This document shows positions 19,221-30,606 of a DNA stretch of 64,000 nucleotides, piece after piece. Where the stretch lies: assembly GCF_003057965.1 (NCBI RefSeq), contig NZ_CP020921.1, positions 755,001-819,000 on the forward strand, given 5' to 3'. Origin of the DNA: Thermodesulfobium acidiphilum. GTDB lineage: Bacteria > Thermodesulfobiota > Thermodesulfobiia > Thermodesulfobiales > Thermodesulfobiaceae. The translations under genes were made by a program, and so were the position numbers. The notes below the pieces were generated by a model that was given only the letters and a program-made list of their open reading frames with translations, searched no databases and was not told the origin of the DNA. The stretch's first letter is position 1, and each line of letters begins with the position of its first letter.

Positions 19221-20555
19221 ATGAGATTTATTTTTTTTATACTTTTATTTATTTTTTTAACTCCTCAAATTTCTTTTTCAGAACCAATAAGTTTAGACTT
19301 AAATGAAGCTATACAGTATGCATTAGTAAATAATCACGAGCTAAAATTTCTTTCTGAGTCTATTATTTCAAAGGAAGCAGATTTGGGAATTGCTCGAAGC
19401 AGTTATTTACCTAAACTTTCTTTTAGTGAGACCTACCTGAGGACAAACAATCCTACATACGCATTTATGGCGAAATTAAATGAAGGAAGATTTACACAAA
19501 ACGATTTTGAAATAAACTCTTTAAACAATCCTTCATCTATTAACGATTATCAGACAACTTTTACTGTCGATCAGTTGATCTTTTCAAAAAAGGCCTTACT
19601 GGCTATTGATATGGCGAAAAAAGAACTTCAAGCACAAAAACTTAGTTACAAGAGAAAAAAAGAAGAAGTTGTTTATAACGTTATAAAAAGTTATTTAGAA
19701 GTTCAAACTGCTAAAGAATATTTAAATGTAGCCCAAAAAGCTCTTGACGATGCTTTAGAACATGAAAAGATTGCAAAAATTAATTATAAAGTAGGTTTAA
19801 GCGTTTATTCAGATGTTTTAAGGGCTGAAACCTCTGTTTTAGCAGCAAAAGAAAGACTTGTAAGTGCCAGGAAGAATTTTGAAATATCACAAAGGACTTT
19901 TGGTCTTGTGTTAGGCATTAAAGAAAATGTAATTCCATCTGGAAATTTTGATTTACCCATTAAGCTTCAAAACGAAGATTATTATAAAAATGCAAGCCTT
20001 AATCGGGCTGATTTAAGGGCAATTGAATTAAGAAACAAAATTGCAAAAAAGAATATAGAATTGACAACCTCTGGATATTTGCCTTATATAGGACTTTCAT
20101 TTACTTATCAGATGAACGATCACAGTAATATTTTTGGTTCTGAAGGGAGTAGCTATCAATTTTTAACATATTTAAGCTGGAACATATTTGATGGGGCAAA
20201 AAGAGAAAATGAAATAAAAAAGGCTAAAGCTGAACAAAAAATGGTTGAAGAAAATTTAAAGGCTTTAGAAGATGCTATTTCTTTAGAAGTTTATAGTTCT
20301 TATCTTGGAGTGAAAGAGGCTAAAGAGAATTTAGAGCTTGCAAAAGGTGCTCTAGCTAGTGCAGAAGAAGACACAAAAATTATTTTACACAGATATCAAA
20401 ATGCTCTTTCACCTTTTATTGATTTATTAGATGCACAAACAAATTTGGATAACATAAGGGCAAATCTGGTTGATAAAGAGAATAAATATTTTATGTCTTT
20501 AGTTGATTTAGATTACAAAAGTGGAATTTTGCTTTCGGAATTGGGAATCAAGTAA
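19221..20555 (+). CDS. TolC-family outer-membrane efflux channel
   Basis: A 444-residue protein with a cleavable signal peptide (MRFIFFILLFIFLTPQISFS). The mature part has the two-fold repeated alpha-helical coiled-coil architecture of TolC/OEP proteins: SLDLNEAIQYALVNNHELK at the start, VYSDVLRAETSVLAAKERL in the first repeat, and ALSPFIDLLDAQTNLDNIRANLVDKENKYFMSLVDLDYKSG near the end, the classic C-terminal OEP block. It forms the outer-membrane exit duct. GGAGG precedes the ATG. The adaptor gene follows 23 nt later and the RND pump after that, so this is a complete tripartite efflux operon and proof of an outer membrane. Confidence 0.93.
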   Translation: MRFIFFILLFIFLTPQISFSEPISLDLNEAIQYALVNNHELKFLSESIISKEADLGIARSSYLPKLSFSETYLRTNNPTYAFMAKLNEGRFTQNDFEINSLNNPSSINDYQTTFTVDQLIFSKKALLAIDMAKKELQAQKLSYKRKKEEVVYNVIKSYLEVQTAKEYLNVAQKALDDALEHEKIAKINYKVGLSVYSDVLRAETSVLAAKERLVSARKNFEISQRTFGLVLGIKENVIPSGNFDLPIKLQNEDYYKNASLNRADLRAIELRNKIAKKNIELTTSGYLPYIGLSFTYQMNDHSNIFGSEGSSYQFLTYLSWNIFDGAKRENEIKKAKAEQKMVEENLKALEDAISLEVYSSYLGVKEAKENLELAKGALASAEEDTKIILHRYQNALSPFIDLLDAQTNLDNIRANLVDKENKYFMSLVDLDYKSGILLSELGIK

Positions 20556-20578: not shown

Positions 20579-21661
20579 ATGTTTAAAGATTTGAAATTAT
20601 TCCGTTTTTATTTCATATTTTTCTTGATATTATTGTTTGCTGTTTTTCTTGTTTCAGGATGTTCTTCAAATCGTCCAGAGAAAATGGAAAATAAAACTAT
20701 AGAGGGCGTAAAGCTTCAAACGGTAAATGAAGTTGACTTGCCGAAGTATTTAGAGGCTACAGGTACTGTAAAGGCTAAAGTAATAAGTGTTATTACCAGT
20801 AAAGTAATGGGAACTATTACTTCTGTTAACGTTAAAGATGGAGATAGGGTTTCGGAAGGACAGGTGCTTTTGACAATCTATGATCAGGATGCATCTGAAA
20901 GAGTAAGACAGGCAGAAAAAAATCTTGATGCTGCGAAACTAAATTTATCATTAAGTAATGCTACCTATATGAGATATAAGGCACTATATGATGAGAAGGC
21001 TTTGAGCCAACAAGAGATGGATCAAATTACCACACAAAAAGAATTAGCTCAAACTAATTATGAAAGGGCAAAGGCAGCTTTAGATGAGGCAAGAGTTGTA
21101 AGAAGTTTTTATACCGTAACTTCACCTATTTCTGGGGTTGTATCATCCAAAAAGGTTGATGTTGGTACTACTGCAATGCCTGGTATGCCTTTACTTAATG
21201 TAGAGAACACTTCTAGTTTTGAATTAGATGCTAACGTTGATTCCAAATACTCTCAAGATTTAAAAGTTGGTTCAATTGTAAAAGTAAAAATTGATTCTAT
21301 GCCTGAAATCGAGGGAAAGATATCAGAAATTGTTCCTTCAGTAGATCCAATGTCTAGGTCCTTTGTGGTAAAAATTGATCTTGGCTCGGGTGATTTTAAA
21401 AGTGGAATGTATGGGAAGGCATATTTTAATATAGGTACAAAAAGAGCAATTGCTATCCCGGAAACAGCTATTGTGAGAAAGGGTGGGTTAATTGGTGTGT
21501 ATGTTGTGGATGACAAAGGGTTGGTAAGCTATAGAATGGTTAAGCTAGGTGAAAAATACAAAAATACGGTAGAAGTATTATCAGGACTTTCAAACGGAGA
21601 AAAAATAATTGTTGAAGGCACTGAAAATGCTTTTGACGGTGCGATTGTAAAAGGAAGTTAG
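20579..21661 (+). CDS. RND efflux periplasmic adaptor (membrane fusion protein), lipoprotein
   Basis: 360 residues. A lipoprotein signal ends in LVSGC, so the protein is probably lipid-anchored in the periplasm. The order of domains is typical of HlyD/AcrA-type adaptors: first lipoyl half near VISVITSKVMGTITSVNVKDGDRVSEGQVL, a coiled-coil hairpin (about 100-170), second lipoyl half FYTVTSPISGVVSSKKVDVGT, beta-barrel with VDPMSRSFVVKIDL, and a membrane-proximal domain with AIPETAIVRKGGLIGVYVV. It connects the TolC channel and the RND pump on either side. GGGAGG lies before the ATG. Confidence 0.93.
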   Translation: MFKDLKLFRFYFIFFLILLFAVFLVSGCSSNRPEKMENKTIEGVKLQTVNEVDLPKYLEATGTVKAKVISVITSKVMGTITSVNVKDGDRVSEGQVLLTIYDQDASERVRQAEKNLDAAKLNLSLSNATYMRYKALYDEKALSQQEMDQITTQKELAQTNYERAKAALDEARVVRSFYTVTSPISGVVSSKKVDVGTTAMPGMPLLNVENTSSFELDANVDSKYSQDLKVGSIVKVKIDSMPEIEGKISEIVPSVDPMSRSFVVKIDLGSGDFKSGMYGKAYFNIGTKRAIAIPETAIVRKGGLIGVYVVDDKGLVSYRMVKLGEKYKNTVEVLSGLSNGEKIIVEGTENAFDGAIVKGS

Positions 21662-21671
21662 GGGAAAAATT

Positions 21672-24600
21672 ATGAAGTTTGGTTTAGCTGGTAAAATTGC
21701 ACAACTTTTTATAAGATCTAAGCTTACTCCTTTGATAGTTATAACAGCTTTAATTTTAGGCGTTTTTGCTGTAATTGTTACTCCCAGAGAAGAGGATCCG
21801 CAAATAGTTGTCCCTATGATTGACGTTTTTGTTCAATATCCTGGAGCCTCAGCAAAAGAAGTTGAGGAAAGGGTAACAAAGCCTATGGAAAAATTTTTAT
21901 GGGAAATTAAGGGTGTAGAGTATATATATTCTGTTTCTAAGCCAGGGTTAAGCATGGTAACGGTTAGATATAAAGTTGGAGAAGATATGGAAAAGAGTAT
22001 TACAAACCTTTACACAAAACTCTTTTCTCATCTTGATTTAATTCCTCCCGGAGTTTCAATGCCTATTGTAAAGCCGAAATCTATTGATGATGTTCCGGTT
22101 TTGGCTCTAACTTTATGGAGTAATGAGTATGATAGCTATGAACTTAGAAAAATCGCTTTGGAAACTTGTGACTATCTGAAAAAAGATTCTGATGTGGCAG
22201 AAACGCACATAATAGGTGGTCCAAAAAGAGAGGTAAGGGTTGATATTGACCCAATAAAGCTAAAATCCTACCATATATCACCTATGCAAATTTCTCAAAT
22301 GATAAGTTCTGCTAACGTTTCACTTTCTTCAGGATCTTTTCCTTTAAATAACTACGAATATTTAGTTGAAACCGGAACTTTTCTTAAAGATGCAAATGAT
22401 GTAGGAAACGTGATTGTTGGGGTTTTTGATGGCAGACCTGTTAAACTTAGTGATGTTGCTACTATTACTGATGGTCCTCAGGAAGCAAAAAATTATGTAT
22501 TTATGGGTTTTGGTCCATCCTGGAAAAAAGATATACCTGGTATAGAAAAATCTAGTATTTACCCTGCAGTTACTATAACGATTGCAAAAAAGAAAGGTAC
22601 AAATGCTACTGAGCTAGCAGGGAGATTATTAAACGATATTTCTAGATTAAAAGGTAATGTTATACCAAATGGCGTTGTTGTAACTACGACTAGAAATTAC
22701 GGAAATACAGCCAACGAGAAATCAAATGAGTTGTTAGAGCATATGCTGCTTGCTGCAGTTTCAGTTACAGTCCTTATAGGTTTAAGTCTTGGAATTAGAG
22801 AGGCCTTAGTTGTTGCTGTAGCAATTCCTGTTACTTTAGCTCTCACTCTTTTGGCAACTTATTTATTTGGTTTTACTTTAAACAGGGTTACTCTATTTGC
22901 TTTGATATTTTCTATAGGTATTTTAGTAGATGATGCTATTGTTGTTGTAGAAAACATACACAGACACTTTAGAGAGAAAGAGGTTTCTGTACTTGTTGCT
23001 CTTCAGGCAGTTAATGAAGTAGGTAATCCTACAATTCTTGCTACTTTTACGGTAATAGCAGCACTTTTACCCATGGCATTTGTTTCTGGTATGATGGGTC
23101 CATATATGAAACCGATTCCTATTGGCGCTTCTGCTGCCATGATAATTTCACTGCTTATTGCATTTATAATTAGTCCATGGCTTAGCTATATTGTTTTGAA
23201 AAACGTTAAAAGAACACAAAAAGAGAAAGAAAATAGGATAATATCATCTTTTAATAAAATATACAGGAAAAATCTTACATTAATGTTAGAAAGTGGTAAA
23301 AAAAGAACTACATTTATAATTTTTACTATTGTATGTCTTTTAGCTGCTGTGGCACTTTTGCCCTTAAAAATAGTTATGGTAAAAATGTTGCCATTTGATA
23401 ACAAAAGTGAAATTCAGGTTTTAATAGACACTCCAAAGGGTACTACTCTTGAAACTACAAATGCTCTTGCTGAAAAAATAGCTGAATATATTAGAACTGT
23501 TCCTGAAGTTGAAAATTATCAAATATATTCTGGGACAGCTTCCCCAATAACCTTTAATGGACTTGTAAGACACTATTTTCTTAGAAAGGGCGATGATGTA
23601 GCTGATATTCAAATAAATTTGGTACCTAAGGATGAGAGAAGTGCCCAAAGTCACGATATTGCAAAAAGAATTAGGAAACCTATCGATCAAATTGCCAGTG
23701 CTTATAATGCGAGAATAAAAATTGTTGAAGTGCCTCCTGGACCTCCTGTATTAAGTACCCTTGTTGCAGAAGTTTATGGCCCTAGTTTTAACGAACAATT
23801 AAAGATTGCTTCTAAGATCGAAGATATTTTCAAAAAAACGCGTGATGTTGTGGACGTTGATTGGTTGCAAAATGAGGAACAAACAAAATATATTTTTAAG
23901 GTTGATAAAGAAAAGGCTATGTATAATGGTATTTCAACTTATGCTATCGCACAAAGTCTTCAGATGGCACTTCACGGAAGCGATGCAGGACTTTTGCATA
24001 CCGATCACAGTAGAGAGCCTGTAGAGATTTGGGTTCAGGCTCCTTTGAAAAATAGGGCAAGCCTTGATGGTTTACAAAGTATTTCGCTTCCTTCAGCAAC
24101 AAATCATATGGTTTCGCTTGCTGAATTGGTGACACTAGAGAAAACTAGTGAAGATCAACCCATATACAGAAAAAATCTTAGACGAGTTGTTTATGTTATT
24201 GGTGATGTAGCTGGAAGAGAAGAAAGTCCTATATATGCAATTTTGAGAATGAATAAACCTATTTCTGAGATAAAAGTGCCAGGCAATAATCCTCTTAAGC
24301 TTTATTTTACACACGAGCCTCCACTTGGCTTAAATTATTCAGTAAAGTGGGATGGTGAATGGCAGATAACTTATGAAGTATTTAGAGACCTTGGAATAGC
24401 CTTTGCGGTGGTCTTAATTATAATTTATGTAATGATAGTCGGTTGGTTTAAGTCGTATATTACTCCTCTTATTATTATGGCTCCTATACCTCTTTCTTTG
24501 ATAGGTATTTTGCCTGCACATGCACTTTTGAACGCATTTTTTACTGCTACTTCAATGATAGGATTCATTGCAGGTGCTGGTATAGTAGTTAGAAATTCGA

Positions 24601-24911
24601 TTATTTTAGTGGATTTTATAGAGATGAAATTAAATGAAGGAGTTCCTTTGAAAGAGTCAATAATTGAGGGTTGTCTGGTTAGGTTTAGACCGATGTTTTT
24701 AACTGCAGCTGCGGTGGTAGTTGGTTCAAGCGTAATACTCTTTGATCCTATATTTCAAGGAATGGCTATATCGTTAATGGCAGGAGAAGTAGCAGTTACG
24801 ATTTTTTCCTGGACATTGCTTCCTATTCTTTACTTTATCTACAAGGATACTGAAATTAAGATTAAAGAAGGAAAAATAAAGTTTGACATAAAAAAGATTT
24901 TTAAGAGGTGA
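21672..24911 (+). CDS. RND-family efflux pump (AcrB/CzcA superfamily)
   Basis: A 1079-residue inner-membrane proton-driven pump, of normal RND length. It has the two-fold repeated topology: a first helix near residues 15-35, a large periplasmic loop with YPGASAKEVEERVTKPMEK, then helices 2-7 with FALIFSIGILVDDAIVVVENIHRH, which carries the two adjacent aspartates of the proton relay. The second half repeats the plan with GFIAGAGIVVRNSIILVDFIE and VRFRPMFLTAAAVVVG. The second half has no paired acidic residues, as expected. The substrate is unknown; the sequence looks closer to the hydrophobe/metal-like AcrB/D/F branch with long loops. It follows the adaptor by 10 nt and precedes a DUF2892 gene by 7 nt. 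Confidence 0.95.
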   Translation: MKFGLAGKIAQLFIRSKLTPLIVITALILGVFAVIVTPREEDPQIVVPMIDVFVQYPGASAKEVEERVTKPMEKFLWEIKGVEYIYSVSKPGLSMVTVRYKVGEDMEKSITNLYTKLFSHLDLIPPGVSMPIVKPKSIDDVPVLALTLWSNEYDSYELRKIALETCDYLKKDSDVAETHIIGGPKREVRVDIDPIKLKSYHISPMQISQMISSANVSLSSGSFPLNNYEYLVETGTFLKDANDVGNVIVGVFDGRPVKLSDVATITDGPQEAKNYVFMGFGPSWKKDIPGIEKSSIYPAVTITIAKKKGTNATELAGRLLNDISRLKGNVIPNGVVVTTTRNYGNTANEKSNELLEHMLLAAVSVTVLIGLSLGIREALVVAVAIPVTLALTLLATYLFGFTLNRVTLFALIFSIGILVDDAIVVVENIHRHFREKEVSVLVALQAVNEVGNPTILATFTVIAALLPMAFVSGMMGPYMKPIPIGASAAMIISLLIAFIISPWLSYIVLKNVKRTQKEKENRIISSFNKIYRKNLTLMLESGKKRTTFIIFTIVCLLAAVALLPLKIVMVKMLPFDNKSEIQVLIDTPKGTTLETTNALAEKIAEYIRTVPEVENYQIYSGTASPITFNGLVRHYFLRKGDDVADIQINLVPKDERSAQSHDIAKRIRKPIDQIASAYNARIKIVEVPPGPPVLSTLVAEVYGPSFNEQLKIASKIEDIFKKTRDVVDVDWLQNEEQTKYIFKVDKEKAMYNGISTYAIAQSLQMALHGSDAGLLHTDHSREPVEIWVQAPLKNRASLDGLQSISLPSATNHMVSLAELVTLEKTSEDQPIYRKNLRRVVYVIGDVAGREESPIYAILRMNKPISEIKVPGNNPLKLYFTHEPPLGLNYSVKWDGEWQITYEVFRDLGIAFAVVLIIIYVMIVGWFKSYITPLIIMAPIPLSLIGILPAHALLNAFFTATSMIGFIAGAGIVVRNSIILVDFIEMKLNEGVPLKESIIEGCLVRFRPMFLTAAAVVVGSSVILFDPIFQGMAISLMAGEVAVTIFSWTLLPILYFIYKDTEIKIKEGKIKFDIKKIFKR

Positions 24912-24918
24912 TAATATT

Positions 24919-25140
24919 ATGTATAGAGCTCCTACACAGAACTGGTATCTTGAAAGGATTATATTTCTTGTAGCAGGTATATTTGTATTGGTTAGTCTTT
25001 TCTTAGGACTTTTTTTGAATCCTTACTGGTTTATATTAACTTTTTTAGTAGGAATTAATTTGATAATATTTGCTTTGACAGGTTTTTGTATAATGGCAAA
25101 CATTCTTTATAAATTAGGAGCAAAATCTAGATTGAAATAA
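24919..25140 (+). CDS. DUF2892 small membrane protein
   Basis: A 73-residue protein with two hydrophobic segments (about 13-33 and 36-58) and the pattern RIIFLVAGIFVLVSLFLG..NPYWFILTFLVGINLIIFALTGFCIMANILYKLGA. This is the DUF2892 (YgaP-like membrane) domain, here with a Cys in the second half. It starts only 7 nt after the RND pump stop with a GGTGATAATATT leader, so it belongs to the efflux operon. DUF2892 proteins often sit next to RND pumps or sulfurtransferases, and their role is unknown. A helper role for the pump is a guess. Confidence 0.82.
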   Translation: MYRAPTQNWYLERIIFLVAGIFVLVSLFLGLFLNPYWFILTFLVGINLIIFALTGFCIMANILYKLGAKSRLK

Positions 25141-25165: not shown

Positions 25166-26932
25166 GTGCAAGAGGTTTTATTTTATAATGAATTAAATAT
25201 AGCTTTATCTTTAGCTAAAGATGTTGGATCATACTTCGATAAATTATTTATAGAAAATCCAAAATTAGCTTTGAACAAAGTTGAGGATATTGAAGAGAAA
25301 ATTTACTTATCTTTAAAGAAAAAATTTCCAGAATATGGATTTCACTGTGAATCTATGGGAATAGTATCACAATCAGCCCATGAAAACAATATATATTGGA
25401 TAGTTTCAGCTCTTTCTGGTTTAGAACCATTTATAAAAGGTTACAGGGGTGCATGCGTTTCAATTGCGCTTTTGTCCAATAAAGAATTGGTTTTGGGAGT
25501 GGTTAACTCATTTAATTTTGATGATTTATTTTATTGGACAAAGGGTTTAGATTGTGTGTATAGAAATGAACAGAAAACGAATTGTAATCTTAAATCTAAT
25601 GTCATTCTTACCTCATATGAAGCTGATAAAAATAGTAGGACTAATTCAATTCTTTGTTATCCTTTTAAATATAAATGTGTTCCATCTTTTTCTTATAGAT
25701 TAGCTCTATGCTCAGTGGGTGAAGGGGTTTTTGCAATTGATTGTTCAAGTCCAACAACATTTTCATATGCTGCATCTCATGCTCTTTTAATTGGAAATGG
25801 GTTAAATCTTTACGACGAAATGGGTAAAGAAATCGTATACTCAAAGCAAGGTTATAGCGGATGCGGCCAGGTGTGTTTTGGAGGGAAGTATGAAGTAATA
25901 AGAGATTTTATTGGCAAGAATTGGAAGAGTGTACTCTATAGGCCACTGCTTGAAAATATTCTTAATCTTAATCAGACAGAAGTTCCTAAGCTTGGCAGGA
26001 GTGTTAAGGATAAAGAATTGCTTTCTAAGGTTCAAGGTACCCTGATTGGTTTGGTGATTGGCGATTCGTTTGGATATTCTAATAGTAACGAAAAAATTAT
26101 TGACTTTACTATTGAAAATCAAATGTTAGAACCTGTAAATTCTGAAATTGTTATTATTTTGTCAAGAGTTTTATCAAAATATTGCCTGTATGAGCCTAAA
26201 AAAGTTATAGAATCTTATTTATATTGGTATAATTCTGAACCAGTAGAAGTTAGTTTTTCAGAGTCAAGCGCTTTTAGCGTCCTTAATTCTTTGTCTCATA
26301 TTCCAAAAAACTATGTTTCTGAATCTATTGATGATATTTCGAATTCTTTTTTGTTAAGAGTTATTCCTATAGCAATATTTACTTTAAATTTTTCGTTCGA
26401 AGAGGCTTTTGATATCGTGGAAACTGATTGTAAGATAACTAATCCAAATTCTCTTTGTTTAGAGTGTGCAAAAATATTTTTATATAGCATAAGGTTAGCT
26501 TTAAAAAGAAAACTATCAAAAGAAGATTTATATAAATATATTGTTAGATTTGTAAGTGAAAGTGATTTTTCTGATAATGTAAAGAATGCTTTGATTGATG
26601 CGAAAATACGAGTTCATTCAGATCACAATAAAAACTCTGAAAACGTTTTAGTTTGCATTCAAAATTTGTTCTATGAAGTATTAAACTCAAATACCTTTGA
26701 GGAATCAATCATAAAAACATCAATAAGAGGAGGAGACACTTCCAAAAATTGTGCTTTAGTAGGTTCTTTGTTTGGTGCTTTATATGGGTTAGAAAATATT
26801 CCTATATATTTTAAAGATAAAATTCTTTCAAGTAGGTCTGTAAAAGGTTTGCCAAAGGTTGCATATCCTAGGCCTCAAGTATTTTGGCCTGTTGATATTC
26901 TAATTATTGCTGAAAATCTTTTAAAATGTTGA
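25166..26932 (+). CDS. inositol-monophosphatase-like / ADP-ribosylglycohydrolase-like fusion, both active sites degenerate
   Basis: 588 residues. The N-terminal half follows the IMPase/FBPase fold. The motif normally WIVDPLDGT reads WIVSALSGL (78-86), and the WDxAAG block reads FSYAAS (199-204), so all three metal-binding aspartates are serines (81, 84, 200). From about 288 the protein follows ADP-ribosylglycohydrolase (DraG/ARH): GTLIGLVIGDSFG at 291-303. The DDT metal motif is VNSE (324-327). The late GGDTD motif is GGDTS (522-526), then the conserved GSLFGALYGLENIP tail. Catalysis by either domain is doubtful; a binding role is more likely. It follows the DUF2892 gene by 25 nt. The start is GTG after AAAAGGGGTG. 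Confidence 0.75.
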   Translation: MQEVLFYNELNIALSLAKDVGSYFDKLFIENPKLALNKVEDIEEKIYLSLKKKFPEYGFHCESMGIVSQSAHENNIYWIVSALSGLEPFIKGYRGACVSIALLSNKELVLGVVNSFNFDDLFYWTKGLDCVYRNEQKTNCNLKSNVILTSYEADKNSRTNSILCYPFKYKCVPSFSYRLALCSVGEGVFAIDCSSPTTFSYAASHALLIGNGLNLYDEMGKEIVYSKQGYSGCGQVCFGGKYEVIRDFIGKNWKSVLYRPLLENILNLNQTEVPKLGRSVKDKELLSKVQGTLIGLVIGDSFGYSNSNEKIIDFTIENQMLEPVNSEIVIILSRVLSKYCLYEPKKVIESYLYWYNSEPVEVSFSESSAFSVLNSLSHIPKNYVSESIDDISNSFLLRVIPIAIFTLNFSFEEAFDIVETDCKITNPNSLCLECAKIFLYSIRLALKRKLSKEDLYKYIVRFVSESDFSDNVKNALIDAKIRVHSDHNKNSENVLVCIQNLFYEVLNSNTFEESIIKTSIRGGDTSKNCALVGSLFGALYGLENIPIYFKDKILSSRSVKGLPKVAYPRPQVFWPVDILIIAENLLKC

Positions 26933-26959: not shown

Positions 26960-27469
26960 ATGGATGCTATAGAAGCGTTGTTTAACAGAAGAAGTATAAG
27001 GATGTATACAGATAAAGAAATTCCTCAAGAAGATATAGAAACTATTTTAAGAGCGGCAATGTCTGCCCCTTCAGCAGGTGGGAGTAATGTTTGTCACTAT
27101 ATAGTAGTGAAGGATAAGAATTTACTAAAAGAAGTTATTAACTATCATCAATATGCTCATATGCTTCTTAAAGCTAATGTTGCAATAGTTGTAGTTGCAG
27201 ATCCATCTCTTGAAAAATATCCTGGCAGATGGCCTCTAAATTGTTCAGCGGCAATGGAAAACATTCTTATTGCGGCAACAGCGCTTGGTATAGGATCTTG
27301 CTGGGTTGGCATTTACCCTGTAGAAGAGAGGATGAACGGTTTGAGAAAAATATTTAATATTCCTGATAATTTAATTCCATTTGCAATTGCTTCATTGGGT
27401 TATCCTGCAGAGAAGAAAAAACCTCATGGTGAATTAGATAAGTCAATTATTCACAACAATAAGTGGTAA
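26960..27469 (+). CDS. nitroreductase-family FMN protein
   Basis: A 169-residue single-domain nitroreductase. FMN-binding residues of the family are visible in the N-terminal FNRRSIRMYTDKEIP and the AAMSAPSAGGSNVCHYIVVKD block, and in the C-terminal GIGSCWVGIYP and IASLGYPAEKK stretches. The start ATG has TGGAGGTAA upstream. It lies 27 nt after the fusion gene and 13 nt before dppD, so it may be part of a long transcript. Members reduce nitro compounds, quinones or act in cofactor metabolism; the substrate cannot be read from sequence. Confidence 0.88.
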   Translation: MDAIEALFNRRSIRMYTDKEIPQEDIETILRAAMSAPSAGGSNVCHYIVVKDKNLLKEVINYHQYAHMLLKANVAIVVVADPSLEKYPGRWPLNCSAAMENILIAATALGIGSCWVGIYPVEERMNGLRKIFNIPDNLIPFAIASLGYPAEKKKPHGELDKSIIHNNKW

Positions 27470-27482
27470 TTAGAATTTATTA

Positions 27483-28460
27483 ATGTCATTACTGGAGATA
27501 AAAAATTTGTCTTTAGGAATTTATTCTGAAAAGAAAAAAAGATGGTCAAAAGTTTTAAATAATGTAAATTTTAGTCTTAATCAAAATGAATTTTTAGGTG
27601 TTGTAGGAGAATCAGGTTCTGGTAAAACAATTCTTGCAAATTCGATTTTAAAATTAATGCCAAAAAATTCAAAATTATTTTCAGGTTCTATACTTTTTAA
27701 TGATAAAAATATTTTGAAACTCAGCGAAAATCAAGTTAGGGAAATTAGAGGGAGAGATATTTCAATAATTTTTCAGGATCCAATGAGCTCTCTTCATCCG
27801 CTCTTGACTGTAAAAGAACAAATAACTGAAATACTTTTAGCGCATGGAATTTATAAAAGGTCCAAGGCAGTTGAAGTTGCTTTAAATCTTTTGAAGGATG
27901 TAAAAATTGATCAACCTGAATTGGTTTTAAGTAAATATCCATTTATGCTTAGTGGTGGTATTAGACAAAGAGTAATGATTGCCATTGCAATTTCTTGTAA
28001 TCCTAAGGTTGTTATAGCCGATGAGCCAACAACTGCTCTGGACGTAACGGTGCAGAAAGATATTTTAGATTTGATAAAGGCCTTTAAGAAGAGATTGAAT
28101 TTTTCTCTTATACTTATCTCCCATGATTTAGGAGTTATTTGGGAAAATACAGATAGGGTAGTAGTAATGTATTGTGGAAGAATAGTAGAAAGCGGCAAAA
28201 CAAAGGACGTGTTAAGAAATCCTTTGCATCCTTATACATTTGGCCTTCTATCTTCTATGCCAAGAAGAATTAATAACAAATTGGAAATTGTAAAGGGAAT
28301 CAAAGGCAGCATCTTATCTTTAGATGAATTTCCTAATGATACATGCCCTTTTTTGCCCAGATGCGACTTTGCAACAAAAAGATGTAACGAACCTATATCT
28401 TTAGAACCTGTAGACAACGATAGATTTGTAGCCTGTTTTAATAAGGCTGCATTCAAGTGA
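27483..28460 (+). CDS. dppD: peptide/Ni ABC transporter ATPase, DppD/OppD type
   Basis: A 325-residue ABC ATPase of the oligopeptide group. Walker A GESGSGKT is near 40-47, the Q-loop IIFQDPMSSLHPLL near 98-111, the signature MLSGGIRQRV near 155 and Walker B VVIADEPTTALD near 178; the switch histidine is in LISHDLGV. The C-terminal oligo_HPY block HPYTFGLLSSMPR and a Cys pattern (DTCPFLPRC, RC, AC) suggest the [4Fe-4S]-like cysteine motif common in DppD proteins. It overlaps dppF by 4 nt. No permease or binding-protein genes are nearby, so the pair is orphaned and must serve a transporter encoded elsewhere. Confidence 0.9.
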   Translation: MSLLEIKNLSLGIYSEKKKRWSKVLNNVNFSLNQNEFLGVVGESGSGKTILANSILKLMPKNSKLFSGSILFNDKNILKLSENQVREIRGRDISIIFQDPMSSLHPLLTVKEQITEILLAHGIYKRSKAVEVALNLLKDVKIDQPELVLSKYPFMLSGGIRQRVMIAIAISCNPKVVIADEPTTALDVTVQKDILDLIKAFKKRLNFSLILISHDLGVIWENTDRVVVMYCGRIVESGKTKDVLRNPLHPYTFGLLSSMPRRINNKLEIVKGIKGSILSLDEFPNDTCPFLPRCDFATKRCNEPISLEPVDNDRFVACFNKAAFK

Positions 28461-29419
28461 TGTTATTCCAAGCAAAAAATATTTATAAAAATTTTTTTAG
28501 AAAAAGTTTTTTTGGAATTAAGAATGATAGATCAAATGTTTTAACCAATATAAATATTAATATTCATGATAGGGATATTTTAGGGGTAGTTGGAGAAACC
28601 GGATCGGGCAAGAGTACACTTGGAAAAATTTTTGTAGGGTTAGAAAAACCATCAAGTGGTACTCTTTACTACTATAACAATGATATTTTTAAATTAAATA
28701 AAAGAGATTTTAGGAAGTTTCAAAAAAACACTGCTTTCATATTTCAAGATCCTTATTCGTCTTTTAACCCTAGGATGAAGGTTTTAGATATACTCCAGGA
28801 ACCACTTATTCTCAATGGTGTTGAAAGAATTAAAAGGAGAGAGATAATTAATGAAATAATCGATAAGGTTGAATTAAGAATCGAGGATCTTGTAAAGTTT
28901 CCGTATCAATTTAGCGGTGGCCAAAGGCAAAGAATAGCAATAGCTAGATCTTTAATTCTTAAACCAAAGTTCTTAGTTGCCGATGAGCCTGTTTCTTCAC
29001 TGGATCTCTCTGTAAAGGCTCAAATTTTGAAGTTATTTGAAGATATATATACTAAAAGCGATCTTACAATGATGATAATATCTCACGATCTCTCTATTGT
29101 TGAATATCTGTGTAACAAATCAATAGTTCTCTACAAAGGTGTCATGATGGAAGAGGCTTTAACTGATATGTTATTTAGAAATCCCTTGCATCCCTACACA
29201 AGGCTCTTGATAGAATCAGCTCCATCTTTGTATTCTGATAAAACTAAGGATATAGAATTGGAAACTTTTGAATCATCAAGTAATCTTGAAAGCGCGAAAC
29301 CAGGATTGTGTCCATTTTTGGAAAGATGTAAATTAAAAGTTGATAAGTGTAGAGAAAATTTTCCTGAGATTATAGAAGTAGAGAAAAATCATAAAGTAAG
29401 GTGCTTCAAGTATATTTAA
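28457..29419 (+). CDS. dppF: peptide/Ni ABC transporter ATPase, DppF/OppF type
   Basis: A 320-residue ABC ATPase and partner of the DppD-type protein before it (ATGA overlap). Walker A GETGSGKST, the Q-loop AFIFQDPYSSFNPRM, the signature QFSGGQRQRI and Walker B FLVADEPVSSLD are intact, as is the oligo_HPY tail HPYTRLLIESAPS. The C-terminus also has spaced cysteines (LCPFLERCKLKVDKC, RC). DppD-DppF heterodimers drive import of peptides or nickel complexes. Its stop overlaps by 4 nt the stop of the convergent HD-GYP gene, so the two transcripts meet tail to tail with no room for a terminator. Confidence 0.9.
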   Translation: MMLFQAKNIYKNFFRKSFFGIKNDRSNVLTNININIHDRDILGVVGETGSGKSTLGKIFVGLEKPSSGTLYYYNNDIFKLNKRDFRKFQKNTAFIFQDPYSSFNPRMKVLDILQEPLILNGVERIKRREIINEIIDKVELRIEDLVKFPYQFSGGQRQRIAIARSLILKPKFLVADEPVSSLDLSVKAQILKLFEDIYTKSDLTMMIISHDLSIVEYLCNKSIVLYKGVMMEEALTDMLFRNPLHPYTRLLIESAPSLYSDKTKDIELETFESSSNLESAKPGLCPFLERCKLKVDKCRENFPEIIEVEKNHKVRCFKYI

Positions 29420-30606
29420 TATTCCCAGAGCATAAGCAAATTATAGGGTATACTCTTTACAATCTCCATATCTATCTTTCCAATTTTTGCCATTTTTTCC
29501 AATATTTCAATGGCTTCTTCATGCTTTATTCTATCTGTTCTATATGGTCTTTGCTGTCTAAGTGCAGCATAGACGTCTGCAACTGCCATAATTCTTTGTA
29601 GTTTACTAAGATCATTCCCCTCCAAACCAAATGGATAACCGCTGCCATCTAAACATTCGTGATGAAAAGATGCTATATCTACAATTTCTTTATCTAATCC
29701 CAGAGAGTTTAAAAATGAATATGTATAATAAGCGTGCGATTTCATGGTTAGCCATTCACTTCCTGTTAATTTATCAGGTTTTTCTAGAATATCAAGCGGG
29801 ATAAAAATTTTTCCAATATCGTGCAAAAAGCCAGCGGTTTCTAATTTTTGGCAATCCGCTGGAGTAAATCCCATTGTTTTAGCAATTGAAACAGCAGTAT
29901 ATGTTACATCGATTGAGTGAGATTTTGTAAATTCACTCTTTGCATCGATGAAGTTTTTCGCAATAGCTTTTACCATGCTTAATAATTGTTCATTATTCAA
30001 TATTTCAAATCTATCACCAACTAATAAGGAGTTTTCCTTCTTTAATTCATCAATATTGTTCATCAGAATTAAAAAGACATCGTTTTTTGATATTTTATTA
30101 AATGCATCAAACACATCTTTAAATGATTTTTTATCTTTAAAAAGGGAATAGGTTTTTAGACTGAGCTCCTTTGTAGTAGTAAACTTGTTATTTCTAAATA
30201 AAACTTCAATTTCATCAGCAAAGTAAATAATTTTTGAAAGTAGGTTTTGCGTATTTTCATTGTGATGATCTTTTATGATAGGTGCGAAGGTTTCGAAAAA
30301 AGGTATATCACGTAGCAATTCATAACCAGCATATGCATGCCTTCGAATATTTATGTCTTTCCTTTTGTTAATTTCAAGTAGCAAAGATCTTTCTTGAGTA
30401 TATGCTCCTATGTCGTGCATTAAACAAGCATGATTCAGGTTTATTCTATCTTGCTTTTCTAAGTTCATTTCTTTAGATATTAAATTTGCGATGAAGCTAA
30501 CCCTTAAACAGTGTTCGTATAGCAAAGTATTTGAGAAAAATAAAGTTTGTGTTTGTGAAATGGTTTCAACTAATTTTGTTAGATTAATTTTTCTATTATT
30601 AATCAT
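29416..30606 (-). CDS. HD-GYP domain protein (cyclic-di-GMP phosphodiesterase candidate) with an extra HD domain
   Basis: 396 residues with two HD-type domains. The first (about 1-130) has HCLRVSF, HACLMHDIGAY and DHHNE, an HD domain without a GYP motif. The second (about 215-396) is a full HD-GYP: HSIDVTYTAVSIA, FLHDIGKIFIP, HHECLDGSGYPFGLEG and RIMAVADVYAALRQQRPYR, with the GYP triad intact. HD-GYP proteins hydrolyse cyclic-di-GMP, so this may oppose the GGDEF protein at 17557. It has no receiver or sensor domain. The start overlaps the HAD phosphatase gene upstream by 8 nt. Confidence 0.88.
   Translation of the reverse strand: MINNRKINLTKLVETISQTQTLFFSNTLLYEHCLRVSFIANLISKEMNLEKQDRINLNHACLMHDIGAYTQERSLLLEINKRKDINIRRHAYAGYELLRDIPFFETFAPIIKDHHNENTQNLLSKIIYFADEIEVLFRNNKFTTTKELSLKTYSLFKDKKSFKDVFDAFNKISKNDVFLILMNNIDELKKENSLLVGDRFEILNNEQLLSMVKAIAKNFIDAKSEFTKSHSIDVTYTAVSIAKTMGFTPADCQKLETAGFLHDIGKIFIPLDILEKPDKLTGSEWLTMKSHAYYTYSFLNSLGLDKEIVDIASFHHECLDGSGYPFGLEGNDLSKLQRIMAVADVYAALRQQRPYRTDRIKHEEAIEILEKMAKIGKIDMEIVKSIPYNLLMLWEY

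Follow-up and report, generated by a model that had tools for sequence, protein, structure and literature searches.

The inositol monophosphatase (IMPase) and ADP-ribosylglycohydrolase (ARH) families need metals for catalysis. SuhB, a protein of the IMPase fold, retains the IMPase catalytic motif, unlike the Thermodesulfobium acidiphilum protein described here (the focus protein). The two are alike in their IMPase fold, and SuhB has a binding role in transcription, where it acts as a transcription factor with Nus factors (PMC4807359, PMC6614801), but it is without an ARH domain. Vertebrate ADPRHL1, on the other hand, is a dead ARH, and heart myofibrils depend on its ancestral cleft (PMC7390403). 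It resembles the focus protein in having Asn and non-acidic residues at the metal positions and a remodelled cleft, but is without an IMPase domain and has an unrelated role in the vertebrate heart. Fusions of the two domains are already present in public records as 'inositol monophosphatase family protein' (for example, WP_096787630.1 of Rhodobacter sp. CZR27 and WP_167517143.1 of Pseudomonas luteola; loci L070-L121). These share with the focus protein the domain order, a similar length, 25-33% identity and a C-terminal PRPxxFWPVDxLxxAExLL motif, but they keep both metal sites, whereas the genus Thermodesulfobium has lost both. The preliminary description of the locus, which had put it forward as something undescribed, is thus right in part: the fusion stands in public records under the IMPase name, but no paper in the literature searched names it, as none mentions ADP-ribosylglycohydrolase together with inositol monophosphatase or pairs the term pseudoenzyme with inositol monophosphatase.

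Locus and predicted folds of the fusion protein

The focus gene lies on the forward strand at 25166..26932 of the window, i.e., the whole 64,000-nucleotide stretch that was analysed, and has a GTG start and a coding capacity of 588 amino acids (stop included in the coordinates). It is preceded by genes for an outer-membrane efflux protein, TolC-like as inferred from sequence and position (19221..20555, +), an HlyD-type membrane fusion protein (MFP; 20579..21661, +), an RND transporter of the AcrB family (21672..24911, +; upstream operon) and a small DUF2892 transmembrane protein (24919..25140, +; the Pfam family is now YgaP-like_TM), and is followed after 27 nt by a gene for a nitroreductase-family protein (26960..27469, +). 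Its frame, open for 588 codons, and its spacing of 25 nt from the DUF2892 gene behind the pump genes agree with the preliminary description. Thermodesulfobium is placed in a phylum of its own, Thermodesulfobiota, which in our collection consists of this one genus with four genomes, and the focus gene is found between the pump genes and the nitroreductase gene in all four. The three orthologues are 76-87% identical to it, occupy the identical locus and carry the same substitutions; this agreement among four genomes rules out chance or an assembly or frame error. The RND/DUF2892 neighbourhood, whose conservation the preliminary description had raised, is conserved within the genus but absent among the nearest neighbours scanned of the relatives.

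Profile searches of the genome from which the window comes gave no match to a second ARH, the focus gene being the only one, and one further IMPase, with its motif intact, is encoded elsewhere in that genome. A DraT partner had no match in the genus in a search whose positive control was also silent. All four genomes encode a macrodomain protein (G000:C1:305503-305853), a possible partner in ADP-ribose handling. A dsrA match above the cut-off is present in 4/4 genomes, and the members of the genus are therefore dissimilatory sulfate reducers. In the window, an Rfam scan found rRNA and tRNA only, and scans for promoters and terminators gave signals at chance level. Downstream, at 28457-30606, genes for an OppF-like ATPase and an HD-domain protein diverge discordantly from their neighbours, with a dS of ~1.2 against genome G001 (neighbouring genes ~0.5-0.7) and of ~0.75 against genome G003 (neighbouring genes ~1.3), which suggests recombination between species lineages.

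Pfam detects Inositol_P (PF00459) at residues 40-229 of the focus protein with an E-value of 6.5e-12 and ADP_ribosyl_GH (PF03747) at residues 325-546 with an E-value of 3.3e-23, both above the gathering score. An AlphaFold model built on an alignment of 51 fusion sequences has a pLDDT of 92.0 and a pTM of 0.92, with residues 307-320 as the single low-confidence stretch. Foldseek matched the N-terminal half (residues 1-256; 25166..25933, +) to histidinol-phosphate phosphatase (PDB identifier 5eq9), SuhB (among the matches PDB identifiers 6tqn and 6ib8) and human IMPase with TM-scores, by target, of 0.69-0.81, and the C-terminal half, of the ARH/DraG fold (residues 285-588; 26018..26929, +), to MJ1187 (1t5j), DraG (2woc) and a Thermus thermophilus protein (2yzw) with TM-scores of 0.77-0.82. 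The two-fold assignment made in the preliminary description is borne out by these three lines of evidence, and both folds are predicted to be retained. The focus protein can be aligned with the IMPase-ARH fusion family over its full length, with both domains in the same order and including the C-terminal WPVD motif. In NCBIfam, its scores against the equivalogs for DraG (TIGR02662; 51.1 bits) and Tri1 (NF041672; 39.8 bits) fall short of the curated cut-offs of 337.05 and 490, respectively.

Loss of both metal sites within a mostly intact family

In the IMPase half, the segment WIVSALSGLEP (residues 78-88; 25397..25429, +) aligns with the WxVDPxDGT motif and has Ser81 and Ser84 in place of the metal-binding Asp residues, and the former WDxAAGH motif (residues 194-206; 25745..25783, +) has Ser200 in place of the late Asp. 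Position 200 is Ser in the window species and Thr in the three others, so that what is conserved is the loss and not the Ser. The three Asp to Ser changes had been recognized earlier, over WIVSALSGL at residues 78-86, but the loss is larger than was then stated, as the fourth ligand, the Glu of the GEE motif, is replaced by Ser63 within FHCESMGI (residues 59-66; 25340..25363, +). The Thr of the phosphate site is also replaced, by Leu86. In the ARH half, the region that formerly held GDALG, the VEF loop and TDDS (residues 299-330; 26060..26155, +) has V324-N325 in place of T-D-D, with one residue deleted, and the VEF loop with its Glu is deleted throughout the genus. In the former GGDTDTN region (residues 517-541; 26714..26788, +), DTDT has become D524-T525-S526-K527, of which only the first Asp is retained. 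The loss of both ARH motifs is as originally described, and the substrate motifs NGxLMR and THPxxxC are altered as well. Thus, the protein matches both families in fold and profile, while the Glu, WxxDPxDGT and WDxAAG ligands of an active IMPase and the binuclear TDD/DTDT site of an active ADP-ribosylglycohydrolase are absent, and the sequence predicts that catalysis is absent too.

An alignment with 64 fusion relatives from outside the genus, one of which is a fragment, places these changes in columns that are otherwise nearly invariant. The four IMPase ligand columns hold Glu in 63 relatives, Asp in 63, Asp in 61 (with one Glu and one Arg) and Asp in 62, and in the genus they hold Ser, Ser, Ser and Ser/Thr/Thr/Thr. 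The ARH columns read Thr, Asp, Asp, Asp, Asp and Thr in 63/64 relatives, and Val, gap, Asn, Asp, Ser and Lys in the genus. Counted per metal-ligand site, 62-63 of 63-64 relatives have an acidic residue, while all four IMPase carboxylates and three of the four ARH metal Asp are missing in 4/4 genomes of the genus. Displaced Asp ligands, which the preliminary description had named as grounds for abandoning the idea, are not seen, the ligand columns being unambiguous in ~60 homologues.

A genome scan recovered 55 two-domain IMPase-ARH fusions from Acidobacteriota, Planctomycetota, Chloroflexota, Myxococcota, Hydrogenedentota, Krumholzibacteriota, Spirochaetota, Pseudomonadota and other phyla, a census biased towards members with the motif GGDT[SD][TK]N, which is among the scan patterns. 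Four more fusions are on plasmids and others came from genome searches (G010, G063, G190, G092 and G423), the phylum surveys around G190 and G092 covering only 2 and 5 genomes. Nearly all of these ~60 relatives, spread over many phyla, have both sites intact. Damage outside the genus was seen in three, one ARH-dead and two IMPase-damaged, and none of the 64 aligned relatives has lost both sites. The ARH-dead fusion, from genome G010 (L006:1468-3357), is 31% identical to the focus protein and has likewise lost its ARH ligands (Thr, Ala, Lys and Ser at the four Asp positions), but differs in that its IMPase ligands are intact (EDDD); it is an independent or intermediate single-domain pseudoenzyme. 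The opposite single loss is seen in a fusion from a Bryobacteraceae MAG (L082:5968-7818), where the IMPase half is damaged as in the focus protein (VDVSRGT, with Arg for the second motif Asp, and Gly for the late Asp) but the ARH site is intact. In a further relative (L071), one IMPase Asp is altered, possibly a matter of alignment. The substitutions thus hold across 4/4 genomes of the genus, but intact homologues dominate the family; the fusion architecture is already known and widespread, and the double loss, as judged from the alignment, appears to be confined to Thermodesulfobium.

The IMPase half of the intact fusions has CysQ, a nucleotide phosphatase, as its best NCBIfam phosphatase match, under the cut-off. 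An attempt to deduce their function from gene neighbours led nowhere, as the nearest neighbours are not conserved and YbjN is the only Pfam family that recurs among them (2/85). Three intact proteobacterial fusions on plasmids (L063, L064 and L065) lie near genes for WYL, restriction endonuclease, TM0106 RecB-like nuclease, HD or NUDIX proteins, a setting that resembles a defence island in these three annotated loci.

Tempo of change and renewed constraint

In the fusion tree, the stem of the genus measures 2.82 substitutions per site and the crown distance is 0.29, while the intact IMPase encoded by these four genomes gives 1.2 and 0.33. The fusion stem is thus ~2.3 times that of the intact IMPase at a similar crown depth, though the comparison of stems is rough since sampling and depth of search were not the same for the two trees. 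At that level of approximation, a long stem with a similar crown is what one would see if the protein changed in a burst when catalysis was lost and then came under constraint again. Support for where the genus attaches in the fusion tree is weak (77/93). A stepwise loss via an ancestor like the G010 fusion was also considered, and a common clade of the latter and the focus gene lacks support but is not rejected by the AU test (p 0.09).

Pairwise dN/dS of the focus gene is 0.09-0.135 (residues 1-256, 0.06-0.12; residues 285-588, 0.11-0.14), values that come from only four genomes, the wider pairs having dS > 1. Among the neighbouring genes, the RND gene is lowest at 0.03 and the HD-domain gene highest at 0.18, and the focus gene is similar to the adjacent OppD/OppF ATPases. 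There are no indels or stops in the 588 codons across the four species. The relaxed selection that the preliminary description had listed as a possible refutation is therefore not seen, a dN/dS of ~0.1 being that of purifying selection, and the protein has the features of a pseudoenzyme, with catalytic residues lost and fold and purifying selection kept.

Constraint is concentrated in the former active sites. Variable sites number 17/129 in the former active-site segments vs 154/459 elsewhere (p 1.8e-6 by Fisher test, with p 4.7e-6 for the ARH half and p 0.04 for the IMPase half), although the segments were picked from family motifs and burial, which is uncontrolled, may partly explain their conservation. 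Residues 59-66 have 0/8 variable sites, residues 78-88 have 1/11, and residues 299-330, which include the low-confidence loop 307-320, have one. The longest invariant run in the genus, of 25 amino acids, is formed by residues 517-541, where 12 codons vary synonymously only. Pocket positions that do vary in the genus include 86, 200, 204, 363 and 365. Synonymous changes occur in the conserved segments, and it is therefore the protein, and not an overlapping RNA or DNA element, that is constrained there. Positions conserved in the family (>=80%) but lost in the genus are variable at 18/75, vs 96/251 at family-variable positions (p 0.015), while the family-conserved positions that were kept are variable at 14/112 (12%, vs 24% at the lost ones); the lost positions are therefore constrained again, though less than the kept ones.

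Proposed role and alternatives

Based on these observations, we hypothesize, with a probability of roughly 0.68, that the focus protein is a repurposed double pseudoenzyme that descends from an IMPase-ARH fusion and acts by binding. The ancestor would have been a fusion of an IMPase/CysQ-like phosphatase with an ARH, as still found intact in many phyla. The metal ligands of both sites were, as the alignment shows, lost on the stem of the genus, and new constraint followed, as seen in the low dN/dS, the lack of indels and the conserved former active-site segments. The present protein is likely cytoplasmic and would work by binding. The site of binding would most plausibly be the ARH cleft in its remodelled form (residues ~299-330 and 517-541), while the IMPase half may provide a fixed platform. 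Selection for a non-catalytic role, as originally suggested, is in keeping with the double loss in retained folds and the dN/dS of ~0.1, and the role itself is likely. The operon position might hint that the protein acts in concert with the nitroreductase or the RND pump, but a link to the pump is speculative, as is ADP-ribose as the ligand. The altered NGxLMR and THPxxxC motifs and the deleted VEF loop lend no support to the binding of ADP-ribose or a nucleotide that the preliminary description had suggested. A more specific version is a long shot: here the protein would be a ligand sensor that detects a signal of the ADP-ribose or nucleotide type in its remodelled ARH cleft and regulates or aids the efflux pump and the nitroreductase next to it.

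Among the alternatives, a structural or scaffolding role carried by the outer faces of the two folds, with neither former cleft liganded, is unlikely but survives best. It has precedents in the transcriptional role of SuhB, two structures of which were matched by the focus protein, and in the requirement for ADPRHL1 in myofibril assembly, but the best-conserved segments are the former active sites, including loop 307-320, as use of the cleft region would predict. Slightly less probable is a re-wired enzyme, in which D192, E62, D120, D300, D524 and H205 would allow another reaction, which might need no metal, to proceed in the existing clefts. A new Asp192 near the IMPase site replaces a Ser found in 89% of the family, D300, D524, E62 and H205 are retained and the cleft segments are conserved, as such a reading would have it. 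Against this, all four IMPase ligands and three of the four ARH ligands are lost, as are the VEF loop and the phosphate-site Thr (now Leu86), in two families whose catalysis is established to be metal-dependent. A decaying relic under relaxed selection, with which the stem of 2.82 substitutions per site and the lost catalytic residues would agree, is highly improbable given the conserved locus and the absence of stops and indels in four species, and neutral decay is ruled out by the dN/dS of ~0.1.

Dead enzymes with new roles have usually been described domain by domain, whereas in the repurposed double pseudoenzyme proposed here both sites of one fusion are lost. Should the ligand-sensor reading prove true, it would represent a new kind of efflux-associated regulator derived from two enzymes at once. 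The fusion family, with members in many phyla, itself merits biochemical work, and it provides a natural series, from fusions with both sites alive through those with a dead ARH or a damaged IMPase to the doubly dead protein, for testing how a dead enzyme acquires a new role.
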